This document shows, piece after piece, positions 17,798 to 55,638 of a stretch of 64,000 nucleotides of DNA (within the stretch, counting starts at the first letter, position 1; every line of letters starts with the position of its first letter). The position numbers and the translations under genes are program-made. The stretch comes from Curtobacterium poinsettiae (GTDB lineage: Bacteria > Actinomycetota > Actinomycetes > Actinomycetales > Microbacteriaceae): the NCBI RefSeq assembly GCF_025677645.1, contig NZ_CP106879.1, positions 2,480,001 through 2,544,000 on the forward strand. Reading direction: 5' to 3'. A model generated the notes under the pieces. It searched no databases. It was not told where the DNA came from and saw only the letters and a list, made by a program, of their open reading frames with translations.

Positions 17798-17835
17798 GGA
17801 GGCACGGCTCGCGTCACGGACGCGGCCGTGCCTCC
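17798..17835. repeat. Palindromic repeat, copy 1 (glgC-serB)
   Basis: Arms GGAGGCACGGC (17798-17808) and GCCGTGCCTCC (17825-17835) are perfectly complementary, with a 16-base loop. They match the central part of the longer palindromes at 24018, 39595 and 43804. The right arm ends ten bases before the serB -10 element, so it overlaps the probable -35 region. Confidence 0.7.
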
Positions 17836-17844
17836 GTCAGTCGG

Positions 17845-17850
17845 TACCGT
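17845..17850 (+). promoter_or_regulatory. -10 element of serB, leaderless arrangement
   Basis: TACCGT ends six bases before the serB GTG at 17857, with no ribosome site between. The start of transcription should fall at the start codon. Confidence 0.5.
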
Positions 17851-17856
17851 TGGTGC

Positions 17857-18495
17857 GTGCCCCGCTTCCTCGTCGTCCTCGATGCCGATTCCACCCTCCT
17901 CGAGGACGAGGTGATCGAACTGCTCGCCGACAGCGCCGGGACCCGGCCACAGGTGGCGGCGATCACGGAGCGCGCCATGCGCGGGGAACTCGACTTCGCC
18001 GAGAGCCTCCGGGAGCGTGTCGCGACCCTGGCGGGCCTCCAGGCTGACGTCTTCGTCCGCGCACAGCAGGCGGTCCGTGTGACGCGGGGCGCCGACCAGC
18101 TCGTCCGCGCGGTGCACGCCGCCGGCGGCACCATCGGCGTGGTGTCGGGCGGGTTCCACGAGGTGCTCGACCCGTTCGCCGAGCAGCTGGGCCTCGACCA
18201 CTGCCGGGCGAACCGTCTCGAGGTCACCGACGGCGTGCTCACCGGCCGTGTGCTCGGCGACGTCGTCGACGCGCACGCCAAGGCCGTCGCGCTCCGCGAG
18301 TGGGCGGACGCGGACGGGGTCGACCCGGCACGGACGATCGCGATCGGCGACGGCGCGAACGACCTCGAGATGATGCGCGTCGCGGCGCTGTCGGTCGCGT
18401 TCGACGCGAAGCCGCGCGTGCGCGAGCAGGCCGACGTCGCGGTCGTCGACCGTGACCTGTCCGCCGTGCTCGCGACGCTCGGCCTGCGCGGCTGA
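17857..18495 (+). CDS. serB: Phosphoserine phosphatase (HAD family)
   Basis: A 212-residue haloacid-dehalogenase phosphatase that performs the last step of serine synthesis. The HAD motifs are present: D9-A-D11 (nucleophile and acid) in VVLDADSTLLEDE, the Ser-Gly-Gly of VVSGGFHEV (motif II) and GDGANDLEMM (motif III/IV). It has no N-terminal ACT regulatory domain, which is normal for the short form. The GTG start immediately precedes the first beta strand. Other small HAD phosphatases share these motifs, but the DADSTLLEDE cap-entry sequence is typical of SerB. Confidence 0.88.
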   Translation: MPRFLVVLDADSTLLEDEVIELLADSAGTRPQVAAITERAMRGELDFAESLRERVATLAGLQADVFVRAQQAVRVTRGADQLVRAVHAAGGTIGVVSGGFHEVLDPFAEQLGLDHCRANRLEVTDGVLTGRVLGDVVDAHAKAVALREWADADGVDPARTIAIGDGANDLEMMRVAALSVAFDAKPRVREQADVAVVDRDLSAVLATLGLRG

Positions 18496-18507
18496 GCCGT
18501 CCGGGGG

Positions 18508-19221
18508 CTAGTGCCCCATCCCGAGGCCACCGTCGACCGGGATGATCGCACCCGAGACGTACCCGGCACCGTCGCTCGCCAGGAACAGCGTGGCGTCTGC
18601 GACGTCGTCGACCGTGCCGTAGCGGGCGGCCGGGATCGCCTTCTTGAACTCGGCCTGCAGCTCGTCGGAGAGTGCGGCGGTCATGTCCGTCTGGATGAAG
18701 CCGGGCGCCACGACGTTGGCGGTGATGCCGCGCGAGCCGAGCTCACGCGTGATCGACCGGGCCATGCCGACCAGGGCGGCCTTCGAGGACGCGTAGTTGA
18801 CCTGGCCGATCTGGCCGTAGGCGCCCACGACGCTCGACATCAGCACGATGCGGCCGAACCTGGCCTTCATCATGCCCTTCGTCGCGCGCTTGACGACGCG
18901 GAAGGTGCCCGTGAGGTTCGTGTCGACGACGCTCGTGAAGTCGTCCTCGGACATGCGGAGGAGCAGCTGGTCGTTCGTGATGCCGGCGTTCGCGACGAGG
19001 ACCTCGATCGGACCGAGCTCGGCCTCGACCTGCGTGAACGCGGCGTCGACGGAGGCCGTGTCGGTGATGTCGGCCTGTACCGTCAGTGCGCCCTCGGGGC
19101 CACCGTGGCCGCTGCGCGACGTCACGGCGACCCGGTGGCCGGCCGCGACGAACCGCTCGGCCAGCGCGTGGCCGATGCCGCGGTTGCCGCCGGTGATGAG
19201 GACGGTACGGGGGGTGCTCAT
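18508..19221 (-). CDS. fabG: 3-oxoacyl-ACP reductase (SDR)
   Basis: A 237-residue classical short-chain dehydrogenase. It has the NADPH-binding TGGNRGIG, the ANAG motif, the catalytic Ser and Tyr-Lys in LMSSVVGAYGQIGQVNYASSKAAL, and the VAPGFIQTDMTAAL segment typical of FabG. The ATG at 19221 fits the fold start. It reduces beta-ketoacyl-ACP in fatty-acid elongation. It converges on serB with 12 bases between the stops. Another SDR specificity is possible, but the FabG-like C-terminus (SGAIIPVDGGLGMGH) supports the name. Confidence 0.85.
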   Translation of the reverse strand: MSTPRTVLITGGNRGIGHALAERFVAAGHRVAVTSRSGHGGPEGALTVQADITDTASVDAAFTQVEAELGPIEVLVANAGITNDQLLLRMSEDDFTSVVDTNLTGTFRVVKRATKGMMKARFGRIVLMSSVVGAYGQIGQVNYASSKAALVGMARSITRELGSRGITANVVAPGFIQTDMTAALSDELQAEFKKAIPAARYGTVDDVADATLFLASDGAGYVSGAIIPVDGGLGMGH

Positions 19222-19352
19222 GGTCGCTCCGTTCGGTGGGATCTGCTCGGCACGCGGTGCCGGGGACCCGGCGGACACGCCCGGACGAGCGTACCGGAGC
19301 GGACCACCCCGCCGGTTCGCGCGCGGCGCACCCACGATCGGTCCGGCGGGAT

Positions 19353-19358
19353 TAGGCT
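19353..19358 (+). promoter_or_regulatory. -10 element of the 19387-21079 unit
   Basis: TAGGCT in the fabG/DUF3099 intergenic region would give a leader of about 22 bases before the ATG at 19387. The three following genes overlap and should be read from it. Confidence 0.4.
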
Positions 19359-19386
19359 TGACCACGGGTAGACGGAGACCATCTGT

Positions 19387-19809
19387 ATGAAGAGCACGCA
19401 CACGAGCATCACGTCGCTGCCGGACACACCGGAGCAGGACCGGGCGCACCGCCTGTCCCGCTACGTCTGGCAGATGGCCGTCCGAGTGGTCCTCTTCATC
19501 TCCGCGGTGCTCGTGTACTCGATCTGGCACTCGTGGCTGGCGGTCATCCCGATCGTCCTGGCCGCGGTGATCCCCTGGGTCGCGGTCGTCATCGCGAACG
19601 CGGGCAGCCGGACCGAGAGCGACATGATCTCCCCCGCCGGGTCCATCGAGCTCTACGACGCCGTCGACCCGCGACTCCGCGAACAGCAGGAGGACGCCCG
19701 GGCCCAGGCCTACCGCGACGAGCAGGACCGCCTCCGCCAGCAGGCGCAGCACGCGCAGGACGAGTGGCAGCGCAACGGCGACCGATCGAAGATGTGGGGA
19801 CCCCGCTGA
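19387..19809 (+). CDS. DUF3099-type two-helix membrane protein
   Basis: A 140-residue protein of the actinobacterial DUF3099 type. Two membrane helices at about residues 31-48 and 51-72 (WLAVIPIVLAAVIPWVAVVIAN) are followed by a soluble, Gln/Arg/Asp-rich tail likely to form a coiled coil (QEDARAQAYRDEQDRLRQQA). Function is unknown. Its stop TGA shares one base with the next ATG, and that gene overlaps SURF1 in turn, so it may take part in cytochrome oxidase assembly or simply share the transcript. Confidence 0.8.
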   Translation: MKSTHTSITSLPDTPEQDRAHRLSRYVWQMAVRVVLFISAVLVYSIWHSWLAVIPIVLAAVIPWVAVVIANAGSRTESDMISPAGSIELYDAVDPRLREQQEDARAQAYRDEQDRLRQQAQHAQDEWQRNGDRSKMWGPR

Positions 19810-20117
19810 TGGGTGCGACGTTCGACCTGCAGACCGAGCCCGGATCCACCCCGGTGTGCTCGCGAGCCGGGTGCGTGTCGACGGCCGGGTGGCGTGTGAA
19901 CTGGCGCAATCCCCGGATCCACGCGATCGACCGCGTGAAGATCTGGGCCGCGTGCGAAGAACACCGTGACTTCCTCGCCGACTACCTCCGCTCCCGCTCG
20001 TTCCCGGTGCGCGTCACCGGGATGCACGAGGACGTCGATCACCTCGACGACGAGCGCGAGTCGACCGCTGCGCCGAAGAACGACGTCGGGGTGCGCTCCA
20101 CCGGCACCTCGCGATGA
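19809..20117 (+). CDS. Small Cys-rich protein of unknown function, coupled to SURF1
   Basis: A 102-residue protein with a possible metal site: C17-x4-C22 near the N-terminus and C49-x2-H52 in WAACEEH. The middle is basic and Trp-rich (GWRVNWRNPRIHAIDRVKIW) and the C-terminus is acidic. There is no membrane segment. Homologues I recall in this family carry unreliable names, so I assign no function. It begins one base inside the DUF3099 stop and ends overlapping the SURF1 start (ATGA at 20114), indicating tight co-translation with an oxidase assembly factor. Confidence 0.75.
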   Translation: MGATFDLQTEPGSTPVCSRAGCVSTAGWRVNWRNPRIHAIDRVKIWAACEEHRDFLADYLRSRSFPVRVTGMHEDVDHLDDERESTAAPKNDVGVRSTGTSR

Positions 20118-21079
20118 CCGACGGCTTCGACCCGCAGTCCCGGTACGGCCGCAAGCACGCCGCGAAGCTGCAGCGCGCATCCGCGGGTTCGGGCGCTCCG
20201 GCGCAGCAGCACGACCCCGACGAACCCTTCGTCGGCTGGCGCTTCGTCCGGAGTCGCCGCTGGCTCGGCTACTTCGCGATCGCGGTCGCCTTCGCCATCG
20301 TCTGCGCGTTGTTCGGCATGTGGCAGTGGGACCGCCGCAACGAGGCCGTCCGGCAGAACGAGCAGGTCGCGCAGAACTACGACCACACTCCCGTCCCCGT
20401 CGACCGGGCGCTGCCGAAGGCCTCGAGCTGGCAGGACGAGCAGGAGTGGCTCCGGGTCTCCGTGACCGGTCGCTACGACGTCGACTCGCAGCTGCTCGTG
20501 CGCAACCGCGTGCACAACGGGCAGCCCGGGTTCGAGGTCCTGACGCCCCTGGTCACGTCCGAGGGCCGCGCCTTCATCGTCGACCGCGGGTGGGTGCCGA
20601 CCGGCAACGCACAGGACGCCCCCGACCACGTGCCGGCTCCCCCGTCCGGCGAGGTGACCGCGATCGTCCGCCTGCAGCAGAGCGAACCGCGTATCCCCGG
20701 CCGCTCCGACCCGAAGGACACCGACCAGGTGCAGTCGGTGACCCTCGCCGACGTGGCGGACAAGGTCGACGACCCGATCTGGACGGGCGCCTACGGGCAG
20801 CTCGCCTCGGAGTCCCCCGCCCCGACCGAAGCCCGCCCGCTCGGCTGGGAGCGTCCCAATGCCGACACGGGGCTGCACCTCAGCTACTTCATCCAATGGT
20901 TCCTGTTCGCCGCCGGGGGCTTCGGCTTCTTGGCGTACGTGATGGTGCAGGAGTACCGGAACCTCAACCAGGACGACCCGGAGGAGCGCGAGCGCGCCCT
21001 CGAGCGCGAGCGTCGCAAGAACGCGAAGCCGAAGACCGACGCCGAGATCGAGGACGAGCTCATCGCGTCACGTCGCTGA
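20114..21079 (+). CDS. SURF1-family cytochrome oxidase assembly protein
   Basis: A 321-residue SURF1/Shy1 protein, a membrane factor for inserting heme A into cytochrome c oxidase. It has the two-helix topology of the family: helix 1 around residues 51-73 (ending GMWQWDRRNEA, the conserved WQ-R motif) and helix 2 near residues 257-277 (FIQWFLFAAGGFGFLAY). Between them lies the periplasmic domain with LLVRNRVHNGQPGFEVLTPL and VDRGWVP. The C-terminus is a charged cytoplasmic tail. It fits with ctaA and ctaB elsewhere in the window. Confidence 0.92.
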   Translation: MTDGFDPQSRYGRKHAAKLQRASAGSGAPAQQHDPDEPFVGWRFVRSRRWLGYFAIAVAFAIVCALFGMWQWDRRNEAVRQNEQVAQNYDHTPVPVDRALPKASSWQDEQEWLRVSVTGRYDVDSQLLVRNRVHNGQPGFEVLTPLVTSEGRAFIVDRGWVPTGNAQDAPDHVPAPPSGEVTAIVRLQQSEPRIPGRSDPKDTDQVQSVTLADVADKVDDPIWTGAYGQLASESPAPTEARPLGWERPNADTGLHLSYFIQWFLFAAGGFGFLAYVMVQEYRNLNQDDPEERERALERERRKNAKPKTDAEIEDELIASRR

Positions 21080-21120
21080 CGCGTGCGCCTGCGCGTGCGC
21101 CTGTGCGCGTCGCCAGTGCG

Positions 21121-21340
21121 CCGTGCGCACCTCGCGACCCGTGCGCGCTTCGGCGCACCGTGCCGCGCCACAAGCGGGCACCCAGCAAGCAGCGCCGCAG
21201 CGGACTGCGGACGCGGCACCGTGCGGACGGGAGGCACGGCGCACGACCGGTGCCGCGCCTCCAGGCCGTACCGTGCCCACCTCGCGGCCCCGTGCGCGCT
21301 TCCGCGCACCGTGCCGCCCCACAAGCGCGCACCCAGCACG
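21121..21340. repeat. Imperfect direct repeat, 150-base period (SURF1 to ABC-F gap)
   Basis: The 339-base gap between the SURF1 and ABC-F stops holds no gene. It contains a 70-base unit at 21121-21190 repeated imperfectly at 21271-21340, sharing CACCTCGCG, CGTGCGCGCTTC and CCACAAGCG. Each copy is followed by a GTGCGGACGGG segment (21221 and 21382). The first 50 bases of the gap are low-complexity GCGTGCGCCT repeats. Confidence 0.65.
21230..21262. repeat. Palindromic repeat, copy 2 (degenerate)
   Basis: Arms GGAGGCACGGC (21230-21240) and GCCGCGCCTCC (21252-21262) pair with one mismatch. The left arm is identical to that of copy 1 and is preceded by GGACG, as in the long copies. Confidence 0.6.
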
Positions 21341-21418
21341 CAACACGCAACACGCACCGGACCGGACCGCGAACGCCGCGCCGTGCGGACGGGCCTCGCC
21401 CGACCGCACGCGCGGCAA

Positions 21419-23017
21419 CTAGGCGAGCTCGATGAGCTCCGCGTAGTCCTTGTTCCAGTGGTCCTCGGTGCCGTCCGGCAGCAGCAGCACCCGCTCGGGA
21501 TTGAGCGCCTCGACCGCTCCGGCGTCGTGGGACACCAGGACGACCGCACCCTCGAAGCCGGCCAGGGCGTTGAGGATCTCCTCGCGCGACGCCGGGTCCA
21601 GGTTGTTCGTCGGCTCGTCGAGCAGCAGGACGTTCGCGCCGGAGACCACGATCATCGCGAGCGACAGACGTGTCTTCTCGCCACCGGACAGGACGCCGGC
21701 CTTCTTGTAGCCGTCGTCGCCGGTGAACAGGAACGACCCGAGCACGCGACGGGCCTCGGTCTCGTTGAGGTCGGTCGACGCCGACACCATGTTCTCGATC
21801 ACGGTGCGGTTGACGTCGATGTTCTCGTGCTCCTGCGCGTAGTAGCCGATGCGCAGGCCGTGGCCGGGCTGGATCTCGCCGGTGTCGGGCTGGTCGGCGC
21901 CCGCCAGGATCCGCAGCAGCGTCGTCTTGCCCGCACCGTTGAAGCCGAGGATGACGACGCGCGAACCGCGGTCGATCGCCAGGTCGACACCCGCGAAGAT
22001 CTCGAGCGACCCGTAGGACTTCGACAGGCCCTCGGCCATCAGCGGCGTGCGGCCGCACGGGGCCGGGGTGGGGAAGCGGATCTTCGCGACCCGGTCGGCG
22101 ACGCGCTCGTCCTCGAGGCCGGCGAGCAGCTTGTCGGCACGCGCGACCATCTGGTGGGCTGCCGCGGCCTTCGACGCCTTGGCGCCGAACCGGGCGGCCT
22201 GGTCCTTGAGCGTGGCGGCCTTCTTCTCGGCGCCTGCGCGCTCCTTGCGGCGGCGCTCCTCGTCGGCGACGCGTTGCCGCTGGTAGAGCTTCCAGCCCAT
22301 GTTGTAGATGTCGATGGTCTGGCGGTTGGCGTCCAGGTAGAAGACGCGGTTCACGACCTCGTCGACGAGCTCGACGTCGTGGGAGATGATGATGACGCCA
22401 CCGGGGTAGGTCTTCAGGTGCTCGCGGAGCCACACGACGGAATCGGCGTCGAGGTGGTTGGTCGGCTCGTCGAGGATCATCGTCTCGGCGTCCGAGAACA
22501 GGATCCGGGCGAGCTCGATGCGCCGCCGCTGACCGCCCGAGAGCGTCTTGAGCTGCTGGTCGAGGATGCGGTCCGGAAGCTTGAGGTTCGAGGCGATGGA
22601 GGCCGCCTCGGCCTCGGCTGCGTAGCCACCGAGCGCGTTGAACTGGTCGTCGAGGCGGCTGTAGCGGCGCATCGCCTTCTCGGCAACGGCCGCGTCGTCA
22701 CTCGCCATGTCGAGGGTCGCAAGCCGGATGCCCTCCACGAGCTCACCGAGTCCACGGGCGTCGAGGATGCGCTTCCGCGCCGTCTCCTCCGGGTCGCCAG
22801 AGCGGGGGTCCTGGGGCAGGTAGCCGATCTCGCCGCCGCGCTCGATCTTGCCGCCGGTGGGCTGCGTCTCGCCCGCGAGGGCCTTGGTCATCGTCGTCTT
22901 CCCCGCGCCGTTGCGGCCGACGAGTCCGATCTTGTCGCCCTTCTCGACACGGAAGGACACGTCCTCCATGAGGAGACGAGCTCCGACGCGGATCTCGAGT
23001 TCGTGCACGGCAAGCAC
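21419..23017 (-). CDS. ABC-F family ATPase (translation factor type)
   Basis: A 532-residue protein with two ABC domains and no membrane segment. Domain 1 has GRNGAGKTT, LSGGQRRR and MILDEPTNHLD; domain 2 has GFNGAGKTT, LSGGEKTR and LLLDEPTNNLD. A charged linker (about residues 240-310, QRQRVADEERRRKERAGAEKK region) corresponds to the P-site interaction motif that enters the ribosome. ABC-F proteins act on ribosomes in translation quality control or antibiotic protection. The sequence is closest in my memory to the mycobacterial Rv1473 lineage rather than to EttA. The start is GTG at 23017. Confidence 0.9.
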   Translation of the reverse strand: MLAVHELEIRVGARLLMEDVSFRVEKGDKIGLVGRNGAGKTTMTKALAGETQPTGGKIERGGEIGYLPQDPRSGDPEETARKRILDARGLGELVEGIRLATLDMASDDAAVAEKAMRRYSRLDDQFNALGGYAAEAEAASIASNLKLPDRILDQQLKTLSGGQRRRIELARILFSDAETMILDEPTNHLDADSVVWLREHLKTYPGGVIIISHDVELVDEVVNRVFYLDANRQTIDIYNMGWKLYQRQRVADEERRRKERAGAEKKAATLKDQAARFGAKASKAAAAHQMVARADKLLAGLEDERVADRVAKIRFPTPAPCGRTPLMAEGLSKSYGSLEIFAGVDLAIDRGSRVVILGFNGAGKTTLLRILAGADQPDTGEIQPGHGLRIGYYAQEHENIDVNRTVIENMVSASTDLNETEARRVLGSFLFTGDDGYKKAGVLSGGEKTRLSLAMIVVSGANVLLLDEPTNNLDPASREEILNALAGFEGAVVLVSHDAGAVEALNPERVLLLPDGTEDHWNKDYAELIELA

Positions 23018-23075
23018 AGTGGACGTCCAATCAGTTGGTGGGTTTGCACAACGGTGTGTGCGTGAGGTGCACCGC

Positions 23076-23110
23076 TACGCTGACGGGACCGATGGTTCCG
23101 AACGGAACCA
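23076..23110 (+). promoter_or_regulatory. bioY -10 element and downstream 18-base dyad (candidate operator)
   Basis: TACGCT (23076-23081) looks like the -10 element. About 12 bases on, TGGTTCCG-AA-CGGAACCA (23093-23110) is a perfect dyad with eight-base arms and a two-base centre. It sits between the likely start of transcription and the AGGAG ribosome site (23123-23127), where a bound regulator would block transcription. No biotin regulator gene is nearby. Confidence 0.5.
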
Positions 23111-23132
23111 GCAGTCCATTCTAGGAGAATCC

Positions 23133-23732
23133 ATGACGAACGCCACCGGGTTCGCTCCCCGCGCAGTCCTCGCCGACCGTCTGCGCACGCACGGGCTGGC
23201 CACCGACGCCGCCCTCGTCGCCGGCGGAGCCCTGTTCACCGCCGCGATGGCGCAGCTCGAGGTCCCGATGTGGCCGGTCCCGATCACCGGGCAGACGCTC
23301 GCCGTCGTGCTCGTCGGCGCGACGCTCGGCGCACGTCGCGGCATGCTCTCGCTGCTCGTGTACGCCGTCGCCGGACTCGCGGGTGCCCCGTTCTTCGCCG
23401 ACATGCAGGGCGGCCTGCAGGCCCTGGCCCTGCCGAGCTTCGGGTACGTCATCGGCTTCATCCCGGCCGCCGGGCTCGTCGGCTGGCTCGCGCGCCGCAA
23501 CTGGGACCGCCACGTCGGTCGCGCCGCGGTGGCGATGCTGCTCGCGAGCGCCATCCCGTTCGTGACCGGCCTGCCGTACCTGGCGGTGGCGCTCGGCCAG
23601 CTCGGCGCCCCGAACGACGTCCAGTCGGTGCTCGCCGCCGGCCTGTACCCGTTCGTCATCGGTGGCATCGCCAAGGCATTCATCGCGGCCGGCATCCTGC
23701 CGCTCGCGTGGAAGGCCGTCGGCCGCCGCTGA
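23133..23732 (+). CDS. bioY: Biotin transporter BioY (S component)
   Basis: A 199-residue membrane protein with about six helices, the substrate-binding subunit of an ECF-type biotin importer. Typical features are VPMWPVPITGQTLAVVLVGATLGARRG, a family hallmark whose core is PVPITGQT, and GGLQALALPSFGYVIGFIPAA. ATG 23133 has AGGAG five bases upstream. The energising EcfA/EcfT subunits (BioM/BioN) are not encoded next to it, so it either works alone, as some BioY do, or shares a module encoded elsewhere. A strong terminator follows. Confidence 0.93.
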   Translation: MTNATGFAPRAVLADRLRTHGLATDAALVAGGALFTAAMAQLEVPMWPVPITGQTLAVVLVGATLGARRGMLSLLVYAVAGLAGAPFFADMQGGLQALALPSFGYVIGFIPAAGLVGWLARRNWDRHVGRAAVAMLLASAIPFVTGLPYLAVALGQLGAPNDVQSVLAAGLYPFVIGGIAKAFIAAGILPLAWKAVGRR

Positions 23733-23743
23733 CGCCGCGCACG

Positions 23744-23780
23744 AGAACGGCCCCGCACCCGATCGGTGCGGGGCCGTTCT
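23744..23780 (+). terminator. Terminator of bioY
   Basis: A perfect 16-base stem AGAACGGCCCCGCACC/GGTGCGGGGCCGTTCT with a five-base loop, 12 bases after the bioY stop. Confidence 0.85.
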
Positions 23781-23875
23781 GCGTCCGGTGCGGGCCGGCC
23801 CTCGGTGCGGTTCGGGTGGTTCGGGCGGTTCGCCGAGATCGCGGGGCACGCCCCGTGCGCGACCCGCCGGTCGGT

Positions 23876-23953
23876 CACGACTCCCCGTCACCCGAACGCC
23901 GGGTGGTCGCGTTCTGTCGCCTGGACCGCGGCCAGCCGACAGAACGCGACCAC
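23876..23953. repeat. Second intergenic repeat family, copy 1
   Basis: The segment CACGACTCCCCG through CTGTCG (23876-23919) matches 39673-39716 at 34 of 44 positions. Its last 17 bases, GTGGTCGCGTTCTGTCG (23903-23919), also form a perfect inverted repeat with 23937-23953. Together with the bioY terminator and the 48-base palindrome it fills the 345-base gap between bioY and the DUF59 gene; I see no gene there. Confidence 0.6.
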
Positions 23954-24017
23954 TCCGCGAACGTGGGCGGGCGGTCCCGACCGATCGGCGGCGCGCCCCG
24001 CGCGTGGCGTGCGCACA

Positions 24018-24065
24018 GACGGACGGGAGGTCCGGTGCCAGCTGGCACCGGACCTCCCGTCCGTC
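24018..24065. repeat. Palindromic repeat, copy 3: perfect 48-base palindrome
   Basis: A perfect palindrome of two 24-base halves centred on CCAG/CTGG. The left half begins GACGGACGGGAGGTCCGGTG and continues CCAG. It lies 12 bases beyond the stop of the minus-strand DUF59 gene, in the position of a terminator. Copies 6 and 7 share its ends and centre but differ in the middle of the arms, with matching changes on both sides. Confidence 0.9.
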
Positions 24066-24077
24066 AGGGGGTCGTGA

Positions 24078-24407
24078 CTAGATCGCGAACCCGAGGGCGC
24101 GCATCATCTCGCGTCCGTCGTCGGTGATCCGTTCCGGACCCCACGGCGGCATCCAGACCCAGTTGATCCGGAAGGCGTCCACGATGCCGTCGAGGGCGTT
24201 CGCGGTGTCCCCCTCGATGACGTCGGTCAGGGGGCAGCCCGCGCTGGTGAGCGTCATGCTGATGACGAGCGCGTTGGCATCGTCGTCCCAGGCGAGGTCG
24301 TAGATCAGACCGAGGTCGACGATGTTCACGCCGAGCTCCGGGTCCTGGACCTCCTTCAGGCCCTCGACGACCTCGTCGAACTTGTCGGGAGCGAGTGCGG
24401 CGATCAT
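24078..24407 (-). CDS. sufT: DUF59/MIP18-type Fe-S assembly protein (SufT-like)
   Basis: A 109-residue protein of the DUF59 family with the signature VQDPELGVNIVDLGLIYDL, the motif MTLTSAGCPL carrying the conserved cysteine, and a Trp-rich C-terminus (WVWMPPWGPERI). SufT-like proteins help mature Fe-S proteins when demand is high. It is the last gene of the suf operon and its ATG shares one base with the sufC stop. The name is by family and position. Confidence 0.88.
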   Translation of the reverse strand: MIAALAPDKFDEVVEGLKEVQDPELGVNIVDLGLIYDLAWDDDANALVISMTLTSAGCPLTDVIEGDTANALDGIVDAFRINWVWMPPWGPERITDDGREMMRALGFAI

Positions 24408-25180
24408 CAGGCCTGCGCCTCGGCGGCAGCGGCCTGCACGTAGCGGTCGTAGCCCTCGTTCTCGAGGCGGTCGGCGAGCTCCGGGCCGCCCTGCTCCGCG
24501 ACCTTGCCGGCGACGAACACGTGCACGAAGTCCGGCTTGATGTAGCGGAGGATGCGCGTGTAGTGCGTGATGAGCAGCACACCGAGGCCGGTCGCGGCCT
24601 TGGCGCGGTTGACACCCTCGGAGACGATCTTCAGCGCGTCGACGTCGAGGCCGGAGTCGGTCTCGTCGAGGACGGCGAACTTCGGCTTGAGGAGCTCGAG
24701 CTGCATGATCTCGTGGCGCTTCTTCTCGCCACCGGAGAAGCCCTCGTTGACGTTGCGCTCGGCGAACGACGAGTCCATCTTCAGGTCGGCCATCGACTGA
24801 CGGAGTTCCTTGATCCAGCCACGGAGTGCCGGAGCCTCACCGTCGATCGCCGTCTTGGCGGTGCGCAGGAAGTTCGACACCGTCACGCCCGGGATCTCGA
24901 CCGGGTACTGCATCGCCAGGAACATGCCGGCACGGGCGCGCTCGTCGACGCTCATCGCGAGGACGTCCTCGCCGTCGAGGGTGATCGTGCCTCCGACGAC
25001 GTTGTACCGGGGGTGCCCGGCGATCGTGTACGCCAGGGTGGACTTGCCGGAGCCGTTCGGCCCCATGATCGCGTGGATCTCGCCCTCGTTGATGGTGAGG
25101 TCGACACCCTTCAGGATCTCCTTGGTGCCCTGGTCGGTGTCGATCGAGACCTTGAGGTCACGGATTTCCAGAGTGGACAT
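24407..25180 (-). CDS. sufC: Fe-S assembly ATPase SufC
   Basis: A 257-residue ABC-type ATPase that drives the SufBCD scaffold. Walker A is GPNGSGKST, the signature is [13 protein letters not shown], the Walker B region is [12 protein letters not shown] (the SufC-type ETDSGLD) and the switch is ITHYTRIL. It is soluble. ATG 25180 begins [11 protein letters not shown]. It follows the ferredoxin gene by 56 bases in the operon. Confidence 0.96.
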
Positions 25181-25236
25181 TGCGTTCCTTCGGTTGCAGC
25201 TGTGTGCGGCGTCAGCCGCGGGAAGTGTTGGTGTGC

Positions 25237-25563
25237 TCAGTCGACCGGGACGACGTCCTGCACGTCGACGTAGACGTCGCCGTCGCGGACCTCGACCCGG
25301 AAGACCGGGACGGGCTCGTAGGCCGGGAAGTTCTGCGGCTTGCCGGTGGTCAGCGAGAAGCGGGACCCGTGGGCCCAGCACTCCAGCGAGTCACCCTCGA
25401 CGAAGCCCTCGGCCAGCGAGATGTCGCCGTGCGTGCAGGTGTCGCCGATGGCGTGGACCGTGCCGGACGAGTCCTTCACGATCGCGACCGCCGTACCGTC
25501 GACGACCACCCGCATCGGGCTGTCCACCGCGATGTCGGCTTCGGCGCAGACCTTCTCGGCCAT
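25237..25563 (-). CDS. Rieske-type [2Fe-2S] ferredoxin in the suf operon
   Basis: A 108-residue soluble Rieske ferredoxin related to the ferredoxin subunits of non-heme iron dioxygenases. The cluster ligands are visible as [11 protein letters not shown] and, 18 residues on, CWAHGSRF (C-x-H and C-x2-H). It is encoded between sufD, with which it shares one base, and sufC. It may supply electrons during cluster assembly or be a first client of the scaffold. No dioxygenase gene is close. Confidence 0.9.
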
Positions 25564-28292: not shown

Positions 28293-28471
28293 GGTCTCCT
28301 CGTTTCCTTCTCGCGGGACAGCGTTACAGGTGTCAACCCGTGGCGTCTGGACGCCATTCCACCGCGGACCGCTGACATGCGGACCCGGTGCTGCTCCCTC
28401 GCAACGACAATGGTTCCACGCAGTCCGTGGAGTGATCGGCGATCTCGGCCCATTCGGAGCCGGCGCCTGCC

Positions 28472-28477
28472 TAGACT
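28472..28477 (+). promoter_or_regulatory. -10 element of the heme A synthase gene
   Basis: TAGACT in the 251-base gap between divergent sufB and ctaA, 66 bases before the ctaA start. The same gap must hold the suf operon promoter; I could not identify that one, and see no Fe-S regulator operator I can name. Confidence 0.4.
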
Positions 28478-28543
28478 TGACTGCTGCTGAACCCTCGAAT
28501 CCTACAGGTTCACTGCACGGAACAACAGGAAGGCACCACCCTC

Positions 28544-29518: not shown

Positions 29519-29553
29519 CGCCCGGGCGCGTCGCGCGCTCGACACCCGTTCTC

Positions 29554-29589
29554 CGACACCCCACGAGTCGTTCGACTCGTGGGGTGTCG
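29554..29589 (+). terminator. Terminator of ctaA
   Basis: Arms CGACACCCCACGAGTCG (29554-29570) and its exact complement (29573-29589) flank a TT centre, 36 bases after the ctaA stop. In RNA the loop would open to about eight bases. Confidence 0.8.
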
Positions 29590-29675
29590 CGTTCCCGGTG
29601 GGCATCGTCAGCGGGCGCACCACGCGCGGTCAGCAACCACTCGCGTCCGCCCCGTGGCCGACGCTCCCCGCGCGC

Positions 29676-29719
29676 CGGACGGGAGGCCCGTGGCGGGCCC
29701 GCACCGTGCCTCCCGTCCG
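29676..29719. repeat. Palindromic repeat, copy 4 (ctaA-ctaB)
   Basis: Twelve-base arms CGGACGGGAGGC and GCCTCCCGTCCG pair perfectly around a 20-base centre that has lost the palindromic core. It lies in the 396-base gap between ctaA and ctaB, which holds no gene but has this copy, the ctaA terminator and the hairpin row at 29778. Confidence 0.75.
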
Positions 29720-29777
29720 CCTCGTGCCGAGCACGGGACGCCGGTGCCCTGCGGACACGCCTCCGGGTGCACGAGAA

Positions 29778-31265: not shown

Positions 31266-33359
31266 GTGGCTGAATTCACCTGGGACGCCATCGACCGGAA
31301 GGCCGTCGACACGGCCCGCGTTCTCGCCGCCGACTCGGTCGAGGCCGCCGGCAACGGTCACCCCGGCACCGCGATGAGCCTCGCTCCGCTCGCCCACCTG
31401 CTCTTCCAGAAGGTGATGCGTCGCGACCCCAGCGACGCCACCTGGATCGGCCGCGACCGCTTCATCCTCTCCGCCGGTCACGCCTCGATCCTCCAGTACG
31501 TGCAGTTCTACCTGCACGGCTACGGGCTCGAGCTCGAGGACCTGCAGCACCTGCGCAAGTGGGGCTCGAAGACCCCGGGTCACCCGGAGTACGGCCACAC
31601 CGACGGTGTCGAGATCACCACGGGCCCGCTCGGCCAGGGCCTCGCGTCCTCGGTCGGCTTCGCCTACGCCCAGCGCTTCGAGCGCGGCCTGTTCGACCCG
31701 GAGACCCCGGCCGGTCAGTCGCCGTTCGACCACTTCACCTACGTGATCGCCGGTGACGGTGACATGCAGGAGGGCGTGACCAACGAGGCAGGCTCGCTCG
31801 CGGGTCGCCAGCAGCTCGGCAACCTCATCGCCTTCTACGACTCGAACCAGATCTCGATCGAGGACAACACCGACATCGCGTTCTCGGAGAGCGTCCCCGA
31901 GCGCTACGAGGCGCTCGGATGGCACGTCCAGATCGTCGACTGGAAGAAGACCGGCGAGTACTCCGAGGACGTCGAGGAGCTCCACGCCGCGATCGAGGCC
32001 GCCAAGCAGGTCACCGACAAGCCGTCGCTCATCGTCCTCAAGACGATCATCGGCTGGCCGTCGCCGACCAAGCAGAACTCGGGCAAGATCCACGGTTCGG
32101 CGCTCGGCGCCGACGAGATCAAGGGCCTCAAGGAGGTCCTCGGCTTCGACACCGACAAGACCTTCGAGGTGGCCCCCGAGGTCCTCGAGTACACCCGCGG
32201 TGCCGTCGCCAAGGGCCAGGCCGAGCACGCCGAGTGGCAGAAGACCTTCGACGCGTGGGCCGCCGCCAACGCCGACAAGAAGGCGCTGTTCGACCGTGTC
32301 CAGTCGAAGGAACTCCCGGAGGGCCTCGAAGCAGCGCTCCCGGTCTTCCCGACCGACAAGGCCGTCTCGACCCGTGCCGCTTCCGGCAAGGTCATCAACG
32401 CCATCGCGCCGCTGATGCCCGAGTTCTGGGGCGGTTCGGCCGACCTCGCCGAGTCGAACCTCACCACGATCGAGGGCGCCAAGTCCTTCGGTCCGGCCGA
32501 GGCCTCGACGTCGACGTGGAGCACCGACCCGTACGGCCGCGTGCTGCACTTCGGCATCCGCGAGCACGCCATGGGTTCGATCCTCAACGGCATCGTCCTG
32601 CACGGGAACACCCGCCCCTTCGGTGGCACGTTCCTCATCTTCAGCGACTACATGCGTCCGGCGGTCCGTCTCGCCGCGCTCATGCAGGCGCCGGCGATCT
32701 ACGTCTGGACCCACGACTCGATCGCCCTCGGCGAGGACGGCCCGACGCACCAGCCGATCGAGCAGGTCTCGTCGCTCCGTGCGATCCCGGGGCTCGACGT
32801 CGTCCGCCCGGCCGACGCCAACGAGGTCGCCTACGCGTGGCTCGAGATGCTCAAGCACACCGACCGCCCGGCCGGCATCGCGCTGAGCCGCCAGAACCTC
32901 CCCGTGTTCGAGCGTGGCGAGGGTGACGCCTCCGGTGAGGTCTTCGCCTCGGCGAAGAACGTCGCCAAGGGTGCGTACATCCTGGCCGAGGCGCCCAACG
33001 GCACCCCGGACGTCATCCTCATCGCGACCGGTTCCGAGGTCCAGATCGCGGTCGAGGCTCGCGAACAGCTCAAGGCCGAGGGCATCAACGCCCGCGTCGT
33101 GAGCGCCCCGTCGATCGAGTGGTTCCGCGCCCAGTCCGAGAACTACCAGGACCAGGTGCTCCCGAAGGACGTCACCGCTCGCGTGTCGGTCGAGGCCGGC
33201 ATCGCCATGAGCTGGCGCGACATCGTCGGCGACAAGGGCCGCAGCGTCTCGATCGAGCACTTCGGTGCCTCGGCCGACTACCAGACGCTCTTCAAGGAGT
33301 TCGGCTTCACGACGGAGCACGTCGTGGCCGCCGCGAAGGAATCGATCGCGGCTTCCTGA
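31266..33359 (+). CDS. tkt: Transketolase
   Basis: A 697-residue thiamine-diphosphate enzyme of the non-oxidative pentose phosphate pathway. It has the substrate-site [16 protein letters not shown], the diphosphate-binding [18 protein letters not shown], and the pyrimidine-domain [18 protein letters not shown] with catalytic His and Glu context. GTG 31266 begins [10 protein letters not shown] and has an AAGGGT ribosome site upstream. It heads the six-gene run tkt-tal-pgi-zwf-opcA-pgl. A terminator with a TTCTT tail follows it, so downstream genes may be read partly from a separate start. Confidence 0.97.
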
Positions 33360-33396: not shown

Positions 33397-33404
33397 TCTT
33401 CCGG

Positions 33405-33434
33405 GAGGCCCGGCGCGGTTCCGCCCCGGGCCTC
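33405..33434. repeat. Palindromic repeat, copy 5 (degenerate, tkt-tal)
   Basis: Arms GAGGCCCGG (33405-33413) and CCGGGCCTC (33426-33434) with an inner CGG/CCG pair. The arms match the middle of copy 6; the outer GACGG segments are lost. Confidence 0.5.
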
Positions 33435-33497
33435 ACGTCCCCCAGACCCCGACTCACGGTCCTCACGGACCCGTCGATGAAAGAAGAAGAGAAACAC

Positions 33498-38810: not shown

Positions 38811-39581
38811 GTGACCAACGAACGGCGGGTGCTCGTGCACCCGGACAAGCAGGCCCTCGGCGCTTCGGTCGCCGCACGCTTCATCACCAAGATCATCGAC
38901 GTGCTCGACGAGCAGGAGCGTGCCGACATCGCGATCAGCGGTGGCTCGGTGTCGTCCCTCGTCCTCGCCGCGATCGGCCAGTCGCCGGCTCGTGAGAGCG
39001 TCGACTGGTCGAAGGTCCACGTGTGGTGGGTCGACGAGCGCTGGGTGCCGGCCGGTGACGCCGACCGCAACACCACGGGGACGCAGACCGACTTCTTCGA
39101 CCACGTCGACATCCCGGAGTCGAACATCCACCCGATGCCCGCGTCCGACGCCGGCATCGACATCGAGCAGGCTGCGCTGCAGTACGAGCGCGAGCTGCAG
39201 GACGCCGCGTACGAGGGCGCCGTCGCTCCGCGCTTCGACATCACGCTGCTCGGCGTCGGTCCCGACGGACACACCGCCTCGCTCTTCCCGGAGTTCCCGC
39301 AGCTCACGGTCACCGACCGTGCCGTCGTGTCGGTCGACGACTCCCCCAAGCCGCCGCCGCAGCGTCTGACCGTCACCTTCCCCGTGATCAACGCCTCGCA
39401 GCGCGTCTGGGTGATCCTCTCCGGCGCCGAGAAGGCCTCGGTCCTCGGGCTGGCCCTCGCCGGTGCGTCGATCGAAGACGTCCCCGTCGGTGGCGTGCAG
39501 GGTCGCAAGCGCACGGTCTTCTTCGTGGACCAGGATGCCGCGCGCGACGTCCCCGAGAACCTCATCGCGTCGACGTACTAG
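38811..39581 (+). CDS. pgl: 6-phosphogluconolactonase
   Basis: A 256-residue lactonase of the DevB type that hydrolyses 6-phosphogluconolactone, the product of Zwf. It has ADIAISGGSVSSLVLAAI, VHVWWVDERWVP, the active-site LLGVGPDGHTASLFPEF and VWVILSGAEKA. GTG 38811 begins VTNERRVLVHPD, with a GGGAG site upstream. It ends the pentose phosphate run; the next enzyme, 6-phosphogluconate dehydrogenase, is not in the window. Confidence 0.95.
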   Translation: MTNERRVLVHPDKQALGASVAARFITKIIDVLDEQERADIAISGGSVSSLVLAAIGQSPARESVDWSKVHVWWVDERWVPAGDADRNTTGTQTDFFDHVDIPESNIHPMPASDAGIDIEQAALQYERELQDAAYEGAVAPRFDITLLGVGPDGHTASLFPEFPQLTVTDRAVVSVDDSPKPPPQRLTVTFPVINASQRVWVILSGAEKASVLGLALAGASIEDVPVGGVQGRKRTVFFVDQDAARDVPENLIASTY

Positions 39582-39594
39582 ACGCGCGTTCCTG

Positions 39595-39640
39595 ACGGAC
39601 GGGAGGCCCGGTGCCAGCTGGCACCGGGCCTCCCGTCCGT
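39595..39640. repeat. Palindromic repeat, copy 6: perfect 46-base palindrome
   Basis: Two 23-base halves centred on CCAG/CTGG, left half beginning ACGGACGGGAGGCCCGGTG. It starts 14 bases after the pgl stop, a terminator position. It differs from copy 3 by a compensated change (CC for TC in the left arm, GG for GA in the right). Confidence 0.9.
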
Positions 39641-39672
39641 TTGTGGTGGCGCTCACCGCGCGCCGCGCCCGA

Positions 39673-39752
39673 CACGACTCCCCGCCGAAGCAACGCCGAG
39701 TGGTCACGAACTGTCGGCTACGCGGATGCCGGACGACGGTTCGCGCCACCTC
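39673..39752. repeat. Second intergenic repeat family, copy 2
   Basis: Matches 23876-23919 at 34 of 44 positions, starting CACGACTCCCCG and ending CTGTCG. An imperfect complementary arm (ends near CCACCTC, 39752) follows. As at copy 1, it lies within 150 bases of a long palindrome. The rest of the 282-base pgl-rbpA gap holds the rbpA terminator and no gene. Confidence 0.55.
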
Positions 39753-39813
39753 GACGCACCGCACGCGGCATGTCGTGACCGCTCGGCGAGCGAGCCGCCC
39801 GCGCCCCGGACAC

Positions 39814-39850
39814 ACGAAGGCCCCTGCACCATCGGTGCAGGGGCCTTCGT
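39814..39850 (-). terminator. Terminator of secG-rbpA
   Basis: A perfect 17-base stem (left arm ACGAAGGCCCCTGCACC) with an ATC loop, 13 bases beyond the rbpA stop on the minus strand. Confidence 0.88.
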
Positions 39851-39863
39851 CAGCGTGCGTGCG

Positions 39864-40232
39864 CTAGCTCTTCTTCGCCATGGTGCCGCGACGCTCTCGG
39901 AGCTGCTGGAGCGCGTCCTCGAGGAGCTGCGCTGCCTCTTCCTCGGTGCGGCGTTCCTTCACGTACGCGAGGTGGGTCTTGTAGGGCTCCGTCTTGGAGA
40001 CCACGGGCGGGTTCTCCTTGTCGCGACCGGCCGGCAGACCACTCGACGGCGAGTCCACCGTCTCGGGGATCTCTTCGTCGGGCAGGTTCGCGGCGAAGTA
40101 CCGCACGACCTCGTTGCCGAGGGCGTCCCAGTACGAGATCGCCACCCGCTCTGCCTGGACCCCGCGGTCCTGTTCGCCCATCGGTCCCGCGCCGACGCGG
40201 GACCCTCGGATTGCACTGCCTCCGCTTGCCAT
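39864..40232 (-). CDS. rbpA: RNA polymerase-binding protein RbpA
   Basis: A 122-residue actinobacterial transcription factor that binds the principal sigma factor and RNA polymerase and stabilises the open promoter complex. The N-terminal MASGGSAIRGSRVGAGPMGE is the conserved core-interacting tail, and the central part carries the beta-barrel (RVAISYWDALGNEVVRYFA). The C-terminal sigma-interaction segment KTHLAYVKERRTEEEAAQLL is complete. The zinc-site cysteines of some homologues are absent. ATG 40232 lies three bases after the secG stop, so it is co-translated with secG. Confidence 0.93.
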   Translation of the reverse strand: MASGGSAIRGSRVGAGPMGEQDRGVQAERVAISYWDALGNEVVRYFAANLPDEEIPETVDSPSSGLPAGRDKENPPVVSKTEPYKTHLAYVKERRTEEEAAQLLEDALQQLRERRGTMAKKS

Positions 40233-42589: not shown

Positions 42590-42592
42590 GTG

Positions 42593-44847
<2,255 letters not shown>

Positions 44848-44922
44848 AGCATCATTCCTAACGTTCGTTCAGTGGTTCCCGCAGATCCGGCGGCACGGGC
44901 GTGGGAGCGGCCGGAGGGACGG

Positions 44923-45822: not shown

Positions 45823-45886
45823 CTGGGAGTGGGCTCCGTCGTGGCGGCCCGGGCGCGTCGCCCGGGGAGGTCTCGGCTGCCGGACC

Positions 45887-45892
45887 AGGCTA
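45887..45892 (-). promoter_or_regulatory. -10 element upstream of rapZ
   Basis: TAGCCT on the minus strand in the 103-base uvrC-rapZ gap, giving a leader of about 58 bases before the rapZ ATG. Confidence 0.4.
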
Positions 45893-45925
45893 CCGCCCGG
45901 TGGCGGCCGGGAGGCGCGGGGTTCG

Positions 45926-47974: not shown

Positions 47975-51031
<3,057 letters not shown>

Positions 51032-51079
51032 CGTCGTCGATTCTACGAAGCGGGACCGACATTCGGCCGGGATGGAGGG

Positions 51080-51986
51080 TCAGACGAGTGCGTCGAGAGC
51101 GAACGCGACACCGGATGCACGCTCGCTCGCTGCCCAGAGCTGCGCTGCGACCGTCCGGTCGTGCGCCCGTGGTTCCGCCGCGACCACGGCGGCCGGGCCA
51201 CGGAGCTGCATCCAGCCCGCCGGACCCCAGTACTCCCCCGAACGCACGTCCGCACCGACGGCCGCGTGCACGAGCGGCTGGGCACCGAGGTCCTTGCCCT
51301 GGGCCACGATGCGCTGCGCCGGGCGGATCCACTCGGGCTCGGGTCGTGCCGGGCTGACCTCCGGGCGTGCCGGTGACAGGCGGTCGAGCGACAGGCCGGG
51401 GTGCGCGACGACGCTCGACACGGACGACCCCGAGTCGGCCAGTCGCCCGGCGAGCTCGAAGCCGAACAGCATCACCGCGAGCTTGCTCCTTGCGTACTGG
51501 CGGTGGCTCGAGTACCGACCGACGCCGAGCGGATCGGTCGCGTCGAGCTGGGCGAACCGATGGGCGATCGACCCGAGGTGCACGACCCGGCCGGCTCGTC
51601 GTTCGAGCAGGGGCAGGACCAGGGCGGTCCACGCGAAGTGCCCGAGGTGGTTCGTGCCGATCTGCAGCTCGGTGCCCTGTGCCGTGCTCCCCCGCGTCGA
51701 CGCCCCGACGACCCCGGCGTTGTTCACGACCGCGTCGACGCCGTCGGGCTCCAGCGCGGCGAGTTCGTCGGCAGCGGCACTGACCGAGTCGAGGTCGGCG
51801 AGGTCGAGGTGGACGTGCGCGAGCGAGGCGCCGTCGACGTGCCGCCGGATGCTGCGCTCGGCGGCGTCCGCCCGACCGCGGTCGCGCGTCGCCAGCACCA
51901 CACGGTGCCCCGCCGCGGCGAGCTGCTCGGCGGCGTGGTAGCCGAGCCCGGCGCTCGCACCGGTGACGACGACCGTACGGGCGCCG

Positions 51987-51997
<11 letters not shown>
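51080..51997 (-). CDS. SDR-family oxidoreductase inside the uvr cluster
   Basis: A 305-residue atypical short-chain dehydrogenase of the retinol-dehydrogenase/protochlorophyllide-reductase-like group. It has [37 protein letters not shown] and the catalytic Tyr-Lys in [15 protein letters not shown]; the usual SS before the Tyr is present as HLGSIAHRF, so the catalytic Ser is not certain. A 20-residue Pro/Glu/Ala/Arg insert ([16 protein letters not shown]) is unusual. Its ATG overlaps the uvrB 3' end by 11 bases, so it is co-translated with a repair gene without any evident link. Confidence 0.85.
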
Positions 51998-54071
<2,074 letters not shown>

Positions 54072-54229
54072 GGGGACAACGGTAGTCGGCACCCCTGACA
54101 CCGAGGACCCCTGCTCGCCCTCGGCGTATTGTCCGCTGCAAGCAGGCTCCAAGTCGACTGATAGTGGCCGGGCATACCGTCCGATCCGTTCAGTCACCCG
54201 ACTCCTTCCCACTCCCCCGAAGAGGCCTC

Positions 54230-55558
54230 ATGACCACGGCGACCCCGGCCGCACCGATCAAGGGCACCCCGTTCCGCGGACGCATCCGCGGGCGCGTGCT
54301 CGTCCTGCTCTGCTGCATGTACGCGATCTCGTACATCGACCGGACGAACATCTCGACCGCGCTGCCGCACATCACCGAGGAGTTCGGGTTCAACGAGGCG
54401 ACCGCCGGCCTCATCGTCTCCGCGTTCTCGTTGCCGTACGCCCTGCTGCAGGTGTTCGGCGGCACGATCAGCGAGAAGTTCGGCCCGCGCCGTGCGCTCT
54501 TCGTCATCACGGTGATCTGGGGCGTCGCGACGCTCTGGACCGGGTTCGCCGTCGGCTTCTGGACCCTCTTCGCCGCACGGGCACTGCTCGGGCTGAGCGA
54601 GGCCGCGGCGTTCCCGACCGCCACGCAGGCGATGAGCCGGTGGATCCCCCGCGACCGGAACGGCTTCGCCCAGGGCGTGGTCCACTCGGCCGCCCGGCTC
54701 GGCAACGCCCTGGCGCCGCTCATCGTCGCGTGGGTGATCGGCGCGACGGGGAGTTGGCGCTGGGCGTTCTTCGCCACCGCGGTGCTGTCCCTGGCGTGGG
54801 CGGTCGTCTGGTTCGTCTGGTTCCGCGACGAGCCCGAGTCCGCGAAGGGCATCACGCAGGTCGAGCTCGCCGAGCTCCCGCCGGTCGAGACGCGCGCGAC
54901 CCGTCCCCCGGTGCCGTGGCGGCAGATGGCGAAGCAGATCCTGCCGGTCACCTTCGTCGACTTCGGGTACGGCTGGACCCTCTGGGTGTTCCTCACGTGG
55001 CTCCCGACGTTCCTCAGCTCCACCTACGGCCTGGAGATCGGCGACTTCGCCCTGTTCACCACCCTCATCCTGCTGGCCGGTGTCGTCGGGGACACGGTCG
55101 GCGGGATGCTCAGCGACCGCATCATCCACCGCGGCGGGAACACCCGGAACGCCCGCCGGATCATCCTGGTGATCGGACTCGGCGGCTCGCTCCTCTGCCT
55201 CGTCCCGCTCGTGATCGGGCAGGGGCTGCTCGTCGCGACGATCTCGCTGGCGCTGTCGTTCTTCTTCCTCGAACTCTGCAACGCCAACCTCTGGGCGATC
55301 CCGATGGACGTCGCGCCGCAGTGGTCCGGCACGGCCTCCGGCTTCATGAACACCGGGTTCGGCATCGCCGGTGTCGTCTCGCCCATCGTCTTCGGGCTGC
55401 TCATCGACGCCTCGGGCTGGCAGGTTCCCTTCGCGCTCTCCTGTGTCCTGCTCGGAGCCGCGGCCGTCGTCGCGTGGTTCATGAAGCCCCAGCGGCTGAC
55501 CTCCACCGACGGCGTGCTCGAGATCGGCGTCCCGAAGGCCGAGCAGCGCCCGGCCTGA
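54230..55558 (+). CDS. MFS transporter, anion:cation symporter type
   Basis: A 442-residue secondary transporter with 12 hydrophobic segments. The helix-1 motif YAISYIDRTNISTALP is typical of the ACS subfamily (hexonates, glucarate, tartrate, phthalate-type organic anions), and FGGTISEKFGPRRAL is the loop 2-3 signature. ATG 54230 is preferred because an upstream in-frame extension lies in the divergent promoter gap. It stands alone between uvrB and a repeat, so the substrate cannot be inferred from neighbours. Confidence 0.9.
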   Translation: MTTATPAAPIKGTPFRGRIRGRVLVLLCCMYAISYIDRTNISTALPHITEEFGFNEATAGLIVSAFSLPYALLQVFGGTISEKFGPRRALFVITVIWGVATLWTGFAVGFWTLFAARALLGLSEAAAFPTATQAMSRWIPRDRNGFAQGVVHSAARLGNALAPLIVAWVIGATGSWRWAFFATAVLSLAWAVVWFVWFRDEPESAKGITQVELAELPPVETRATRPPVPWRQMAKQILPVTFVDFGYGWTLWVFLTWLPTFLSSTYGLEIGDFALFTTLILLAGVVGDTVGGMLSDRIIHRGGNTRNARRIILVIGLGGSLLCLVPLVIGQGLLVATISLALSFFFLELCNANLWAIPMDVAPQWSGTASGFMNTGFGIAGVVSPIVFGLLIDASGWQVPFALSCVLLGAAAVVAWFMKPQRLTSTDGVLEIGVPKAEQRPA

Positions 55559-55604
55559 CGGGCAACGTGCGGAACGTGCGCCGGCCCTGGTGGTCCGCGC
55601 GCGA

Positions 55605-55638
55605 CGGCCGGGAGGCGCGGGTCGGGCCCTCCCGGCCG
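55605..55638. repeat. Palindromic repeat, copy 8 (MFS to acyltransferase)
   Basis: Arms CGGCCGGGAGG (55605-55615) and CCTCCCGGCCG (55628-55638) pair perfectly around a 12-base loop. It lies between two convergent stops (55558 and 55685). The inner CGGTGCCAG core is lost. Confidence 0.65.

Follow-up and report, generated by a model that had tools for sequence, protein, structure and literature searches.

Repeated or GC-rich hairpins at bacterial gene ends are known from several systems, with which we compared a family of palindromic repeats found in a 64-kb window of DNA (bases 2,480,001-2,544,000 of contig 1 of a 3.76-Mb Curtobacterium genome), where a first-pass annotation had listed eight copies. 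The I-shaped intrinsic terminators proposed for mycobacteria resemble this family as GC-rich hairpins that lack a U-tract and lie up to about 50 bp from the stop codon, as described in excerpts of PMC12288462, whose references include Ahmad 2020 and Czyz 2014; those excerpts present individual hairpins, whereas in Curtobacterium one sequence family stood at half of the sampled convergent junctions. The terminators of Neisseria and Pasteurellaceae that contain DNA uptake sequences (DUS) or uptake signal sequences (USS) likewise carry a conserved repeat as inverted pairs at gene ends, but uptake signals generally number 1,000 or more per genome (both points from parts of PMC1852404), while single half-sites in Curtobacterium were near background; a clade-specific sequence shift within Curtobacterium recalls the DUS dialects (PMC3630211). 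Repetitive extragenic palindromic (REP) elements, known with RAYT transposases and in GTAG and CGTC superfamilies, are also short repeated intergenic palindromes, and the CGTC REPs likewise have no dedicated transposase according to a portion of PMC3733652; the Curtobacterium palindromes differ in being long, often perfect and placed at gene 3′ ends, with no RAYT found in their own genome. The Ype, Efa and Bor families are repeated stem-loops near gene 3′ ends as well, but belong to other organisms and make up a small share of the stem-loops there (selected text of PMC1590033), whereas family arms were present on 44 of 90 strong junction hairpins in a 664-kb Curtobacterium sample. No description of the Curtobacterium family was found among the papers listed in searches of the open-access literature, judged by titles and abstract openings and with sequence strings included; in its main text, the RepRanger paper (PMC12306157) names neither Curtobacterium nor Microbacterium, and PMC3733652 makes no mention of Curtobacterium.

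Judging from the sequences, we consider it likely that these palindromes are a stereotyped family of two-way terminators without a U-tract that are inherited in place. Transcribed from either side, an element would fold into a very stable hairpin just past the stop codon, which has at least 20 pairs where copies are best and would pause RNA polymerase and then release it without the help of a U-tract; because the element sequence is palindromic, one copy could act for the two genes that meet at a convergent junction. Such sites would be old and passed down in place, with arms that change in step and with single sites lost by deletion. Termination itself, the two-way action and the absence of a dedicated copying enzyme are what we infer, and the terminator role already suggested by the first-pass annotation is, as a predicted function, well supported by junction placement and kept pairing.

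The number of copies in the whole source genome was far above control. The core-A 18-mer CGGTGCCAGCTGGCACCG occurred 48 times there and in 63 of 66 Curtobacterium genomes (5-80 copies; reversed control, 0), and was absent from all 292 genomes of 84 other genera in the same taxonomic family; a second core within the same outer arms, CCGTGGCGnnnnCGCCACGG (core B), had 58 copies in the source genome and was found in 62 of the 66 Curtobacterium genomes (reversed control, 0/66). The outer arms, GGAGGCnCG...CGnGCCTCC, numbered 261 in the source genome versus 2 for the reversed control, 247-288 in four other Curtobacterium genomes, and 22 and 38 in two poorly stocked ones (G002 and G043). Outside the genus they reached 32-82 in the six genomes sampled from genus g35, did not exceed 9 in any further genome sampled from the taxonomic family (299 genomes), and numbered in an order-wide set of 396 genomes at most 7 in any genome of another family. 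When up to two mismatches were allowed, a 16-base core was matched at 80 places of the source genome compared to 10 for its reversed control, and a covariance model built partly from three strong window copies (24018, 39595 and 43804) matched at least 75 places, all at 46 bits or more, with slightly uneven placement on the chromosome (Kolmogorov-Smirnov P = 0.034). The model, whose counts in other genomes are lower bounds, also matched G002 (at least 3 places, up to 57 bits) and G043 (at least 9 places).

To place the elements relative to genes, we used a junction sample of 664 kb in contiguous blocks of the source genome (the window, 2.56-2.96 Mb and 0-0.2 Mb) that had not been selected for copies, with a coding share of 88%; genes were called by a codon-usage model trained on the window, with rough start positions, and junctions were counted only from 50 bp upward. 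The 51 outer-arm members in this sample, GC-rich hairpins at gene 3′ ends as expected of intrinsic terminators, fell at 29 of 58 convergent and 22 of 191 tandem junctions, at none of the 81 divergent ones and never inside genes, with significant enrichment at convergent over tandem (50% versus 12%, P = 3e-9) and at tandem over divergent junctions (P = 4e-4). They occupied 51 separate junctions. The palindrome itself is symmetric. In agreement with the placement of I-shaped terminators, which lack a U-tract and lie about 50 bp or less from the stop, 42 of the 51 lay within 60 nt of a stop codon, 35 of them at 10-40 nt, and pairing was better near stops than far from them (0.94 versus 0.85, P = 0.012). 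When one mismatch was allowed in each outer hexamer, the numbers became 31 convergent, 27 tandem and 1 divergent, with 0, 2 and 1 for the reversed control. A set selected by core A (82 elements from the source genome and 150 from other Curtobacterium) comprised 136 convergent, 87 tandem, 4 divergent and 5 unclassified elements; the nearest stop was 10-14 nt away in 102 of the 228 elements with a facing stop, and both stops were within 45 nt in 66 of the 136 convergent elements.

Strong hairpins of any sort numbered 100 in the 664 kb, 6 of them within genes, and such a hairpin, family included, was present at 35 convergent, 42 tandem and 1 divergent junctions. Those with family arms stood at 25/58 convergent, 19/191 tandem and 0/81 divergent junctions, and unrelated ones followed a similar pattern (16/58, 26/191 and 1/81). 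Predicted stability averaged -45.8 kcal/mol for family hairpins compared to -37.3 kcal/mol for other gene-end hairpins. Such stability close to stop codons, together with the lack of a U-tract, would also suit a 3′-end protector, in which transcription ends further on, for example by Rho, and the hairpin blocks 3′-to-5′ exonucleases and stabilizes the mRNA end; Rho dominates mycobacterial termination according to excerpts of PMC12288462, but the convergent enrichment over tandem junctions suits a two-way stop at least as well, and we regard protection as a rather unlikely account of the family. One convergent junction (L204:1348-1715) held three copies within about 370 nt. The gene end beside an element often read TAGACGCGACC, and TAG looked commoner among stops within 45 nt of an element (108 of 267 in the source genome and other Curtobacterium) than among all called genes (217 of 881 in 120 named stretches).

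The 48-bp consensus GACGGACGGGAGGCnCGGTGCCAGCTGGCACCGnGCCTCCCGTCCGTC was derived from 65 copies of the source genome, taken among the matches listed in the core search. Positions were counted outward from the palindrome center, and since positions 1-8 belonged to the search pattern, some of their conservation stems from the search itself. Nearly fixed as well, although outside that pattern, were positions 9 and 11-16, and conservation faded past position 22. Position 10, in contrast, was nearly free (0.13 bits in the left arm and 0.19 in the right) and was paired in 55 of the 65 copies versus 24 expected; position 17 was loose (0.51 and 0.71 bits), with pairing in 56 copies versus 40 expected. 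In the covariation alignment of 60 copies, from which L002, L044, L050 (twice) and L055 were excluded as shifted or shortened, 94.5% of stem cells were paired, and two-sided changes occurred in 10 of 22 pairs versus 5.0 expected, a level reached in none of 500 shuffles, which bears out the arm covariation first noted in the window. Subfamilies were rejected as the cause of the position-10 pattern: positions 10 and 17 were only weakly linked by eye, and the changes happen in place. The stem sequence beyond pairing may be kept through a sequence-reading factor or through recombination spreading it between copies. Just outside the stem, 85 of 464 flanks (e.g., L032, L048 and L009) contained GGTCGCG (read outward) at 4-5 nt beyond the 48-bp edge; its occurrences on the two flanks were independent (P = 0.60), and we therefore claim no outer helix.

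Strand symmetry, the maximum at convergent junctions and the conservation of positions 9 and 11-16 beyond pairing could also be expected of an element acting at the DNA level, as a cruciform or the site of a dimeric protein that absorbs supercoils or organizes the chromosome between convergent genes. Yet a double-stranded site needs no match between arms at an unread base, and position 10 pairs; the spacing of 10-14 nt to stops is tight, and divergent junctions are devoid of members. We give this explanation a slim chance.

We next turn to inheritance in place, which was followed at two gene ends (those of genes 38811-39581 and 43867-44802) with a tree of one neighboring gene (55 genomes, 44 of them usable, several branches weak). 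At the first, the orthologous element was present in 53 of the 63 genomes with a readable end; among the ten exceptions, none was seen in G002 and G010, other hairpins stood in G005, G042 and G043, the outer arms were altered in G030 and G031, half an element remained in G047, and Ns (G015) or a contig end (G061) interrupted the site. Of these 53 genomes, 27 had G-C as the position-10 pair, 23 had C-G, 2 had A-T and 1 had a mismatch, and the tree requires 8 or more switches from one paired state to another. Beside 43804, the element was found in 36 of 62 orthologs with a readable end, for which the tree calls for 5 or more gains or losses, and the position-10 pair was G-C in 34 of the 36; as sites keep their own position-10 state, homogenization between sites looks limited. 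Three losses were readable: G047 and L098 retain arm remnants, as deletions do, and G064, with a 5-nt direct repeat, fits either a deletion or an insertion. In pairwise comparisons of homologous sites, which are biased because most stretches were chosen for holding an element, 102 of 115 pairs were filled, 3 partial and 10 low; of the low pairs, four were one site (L098), one carries an element, one was the 21230 copy, probably decayed, and the remaining four had diverged too far for a reading. Among the 60 low-score pairs listed, of 1032, many were artifacts (Ns or shifted projections).

These histories bear on whether the palindrome is a mobile REP- or MITE-like (miniature inverted-repeat transposable element) sequence, spread by transposition and tolerated at gene ends. 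The many near-identical copies within one genus would be explained in this way, as would core-A 18-mer counts from 0 to 80 between genomes, the two main cores with a clade-specific form, and similar copies on two Microbacterium and two Curtobacterium plasmid records. The filled gene-38811 site in most genomes, the arm remnants in 2 of the 3 readable losses (G064 fitting either history) and the lack of any of the 51 members at divergent junctions argue against it, and we judge it very unlikely. The first-pass description of the repeats as REP-like, in the strict sense of RAYT-mobilized, likewise gained no support: a search for PF01797 (Y1_Tnp/RAYT), made in the source genome and limited to that domain, returned 0 matches, while the same search was positive in 5 of 14 control genomes. 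An uptake-sequence model was rejected as well, since single half-sites were near background in the 664 kb (17, two of them damaged palindromes, whereas palindromes contained 55 and the reversed control gave 9); stretches chosen for their elements, a biased selection, had 9 half-sites outside palindromes versus 161 inside, and 19 versus 278.

Several points weigh against the reading of the family as two-way terminators without a U-tract. Behind family hairpins we counted 2.65 T per 12 nt (48 hairpin-gene cases) versus 1.8 by composition, which does not amount to a U-tract (other gene-end hairpins had 2.49 per 12 nt in 45 cases), and the ability of actinobacterial polymerases to terminate in its absence is a matter of dispute (excerpts of PMC12288462). 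For nine of the 51 members the nearest stop is over 60 nt away, a divergent junction is matched once a mismatch per hexamer is allowed, and the core-A set includes its 4 divergent elements among 232 and 1 in a called gene. At the RNA level, G.U versus A.C mismatches on the sense strand at stem positions 3-22 were 27:18 for tandem and 41:30 for convergent elements, both not significant; across the related rows of the first orthologous gene end the stem gave 18:6 and the loop 15:1, and across those of the second the ratios were 8:9 and 6:3. With no clear G.U preference, RNA-level selection is thus not directly demonstrated. A tandem excess over all 24 positions (53:32, P = 0.03) was left unused, as the two positions at the outer end contributed 23:8 of it, which T-rich flanks could account for.

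Template switching is known to occur at quasi-palindromes, and through it the arms could stay matched in replication without selection, which also counts against the terminator reading. On such a view, the matched arm changes come from template-switch repair of imperfect palindromes, are mutational and have no bearing on function, a view compatible with the other readings and favored by the near-perfect identity of the arms. However, only positions 10 and 17 and the outer end drift. Fixation extends to positions 9 and 11-16, which lay outside the search core, so that a sequence constraint exists, and pairing is worse far from stops; repair as the source of the matched changes seems improbable to us.

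Within the window, the palindromes reported at first with shared ends were reassessed individually. The three longest copies (48, 46 and 44 bp) do have those ends and a common CGGTGCCAG/CTGGCACCG core, and reach 68-78 bits with the covariance model partly built from them; the 24018 copy is one base off the exact outer-arm pattern and otherwise perfect. Three more (29682, 21230 and 17798) carry the exact outer arms with imperfect inner pairing, whereas those at 33405 and 55605 are without the exact pattern and their membership is doubtful. All eight lie between genes by our own gene calls, as had been stated, but a distance of mostly 20 bases or less from a stop applies to the three strong copies only, the other five being about 40 to 160 nt away; for the 29676 copy, whose covariance match starts at 29672, either stop is more than 150 nt off. 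In another Curtobacterium (L142), an intact core-A palindrome occupies the ortholog of the 21230 site. Convergent junctions 23732-24078 and 39581-39864 both contain a family hairpin for one gene and an unrelated one for its partner, at 11-13 nt from the respective stops, and we read the family as standing in for ordinary terminators. The motif GACGGGAGG with at most one mismatch was not enriched in the window (26 versus 62 expected), which makes the window alone little proof, and an Rfam search of the window gave 0 matches at the gathering score.

Table 1. Family members, candidate members and ordinary gene-end hairpins in the window.
Feature	Position	Strand	Covariance score (bits)	Remarks
Core-A palindrome, perfect 24-bp arms	24018..24065	.	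77.2	12 nt from stop of - gene 24078-24407
Core-A palindrome, perfect 23-bp arms	39595..39640	.	78.3	13 nt past stop of + gene 38811-39581
Core-A palindrome, one mismatch	43804..43847	.	70.4	19 nt from stop of - gene 43867-44802
Member, outer arms intact, inner part imperfect and core-B-like	29676..29719	.	36.8	0.79 paired; exact outer arms at 29682
Imperfect, probably decayed member	21226..21265	.	32.9	Match from 21220; exact outer arms at 21230
Hairpin with family outer arms GGAGGCACGG/CCGTGCCTCC, inner part unrelated	17788..17844	.	25.5	
Doubtful weak member, GGGAGG/CCTCCC-armed hairpin	55601..55642	.	22.2	Outside outer-arm pattern
Doubtful weak member, GAGGCCCGG/CCGGGCCTC arms	33402..33437	.	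17.3	Behind gene 31266-33359
Ordinary unrelated gene-end hairpin	23744..23780	.		11 nt past stop of + gene 23133-23732; counterpart of 24018, same convergent junction
Ordinary unrelated gene-end hairpin	39814..39850	.		13 nt from stop of - gene 39864-40181; counterpart of 39595, same convergent junction

The family varies in its inner part: the 51 members of the 664-kb sample comprised 17 with core A, 15 with core B and 19 with other sequences, several imperfect. In one clade of eight genomes (G001, G012, G020, G035, G036, G040, G044 and G045, a single branch of the tree), CGGTACCAGCTGGTACCG was present in 17-24 copies and the usual form in 5-14, compared to 0-6 copies of CGGTACCAGCTGGTACCG in the other 58 genomes; at the one site followed, the clade-specific pair change needed two changes on the tree. 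Curtobacterium might own a dedicated sequence-reading termination or 3′-end factor for which the hairpin family is the recognition signal, and the genome-wide GGTACC/GGTACC switch of this clade would then mark a changed factor specificity, as uptake-sequence dialects track their receptor; we hold this to be unlikely.

When named genomes were scanned with the core palindrome, at least 120 stretches matched; among the matches listed, 118 were from Curtobacterium, 1 from a Cellulosimicrobium metagenome-assembled genome contig and 1 from 'Microbacteriaceae bacterium PS02333'. Three genera outside Curtobacterium (g34, g35 and g55) gave weak covariance matches (42-49 bits) with differing inner parts, in nine genomes altogether. 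Stretches of 200 kb each were sampled from four other genera: in genus g35 (G357; L358-L367), 9 of 18 gene-end hairpins had GGAGGCGCGG arms with varied loops and inner parts, and in genus g7 (G071; L378-L387), 3 of 8 had repeated TCGAGCTTG/CAAGCTCGA, perhaps an independent stock hairpin. The phage collection held no match to the palindrome. On the plasmids of Microbacterium sediminis and M. paraoxydans (L328 and L330), a similar palindrome followed the same annotated SDR-family gene at a distance of 13 nt, and with the same two upstream genes on both, this block looks to have been transferred together with its element. In draft assemblies, N runs and contig ends fell inside palindromes (L215 of G015, L229 of G061 and G033:C37:5-56), which suggests that draft Curtobacterium assemblies may break at these hairpins, with masking as an alternative source of the Ns.

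Collectively, termination without a U-tract is a disputed matter in actinobacteria for which Curtobacterium offers about 260 related hairpins of this kind per well-stocked genome, and as these gene-end hairpins are related and their arm changes matched, the question becomes testable with one standard part. The family further suggests that a large share of the terminator stock of a genome can be one stereotyped repeat family.

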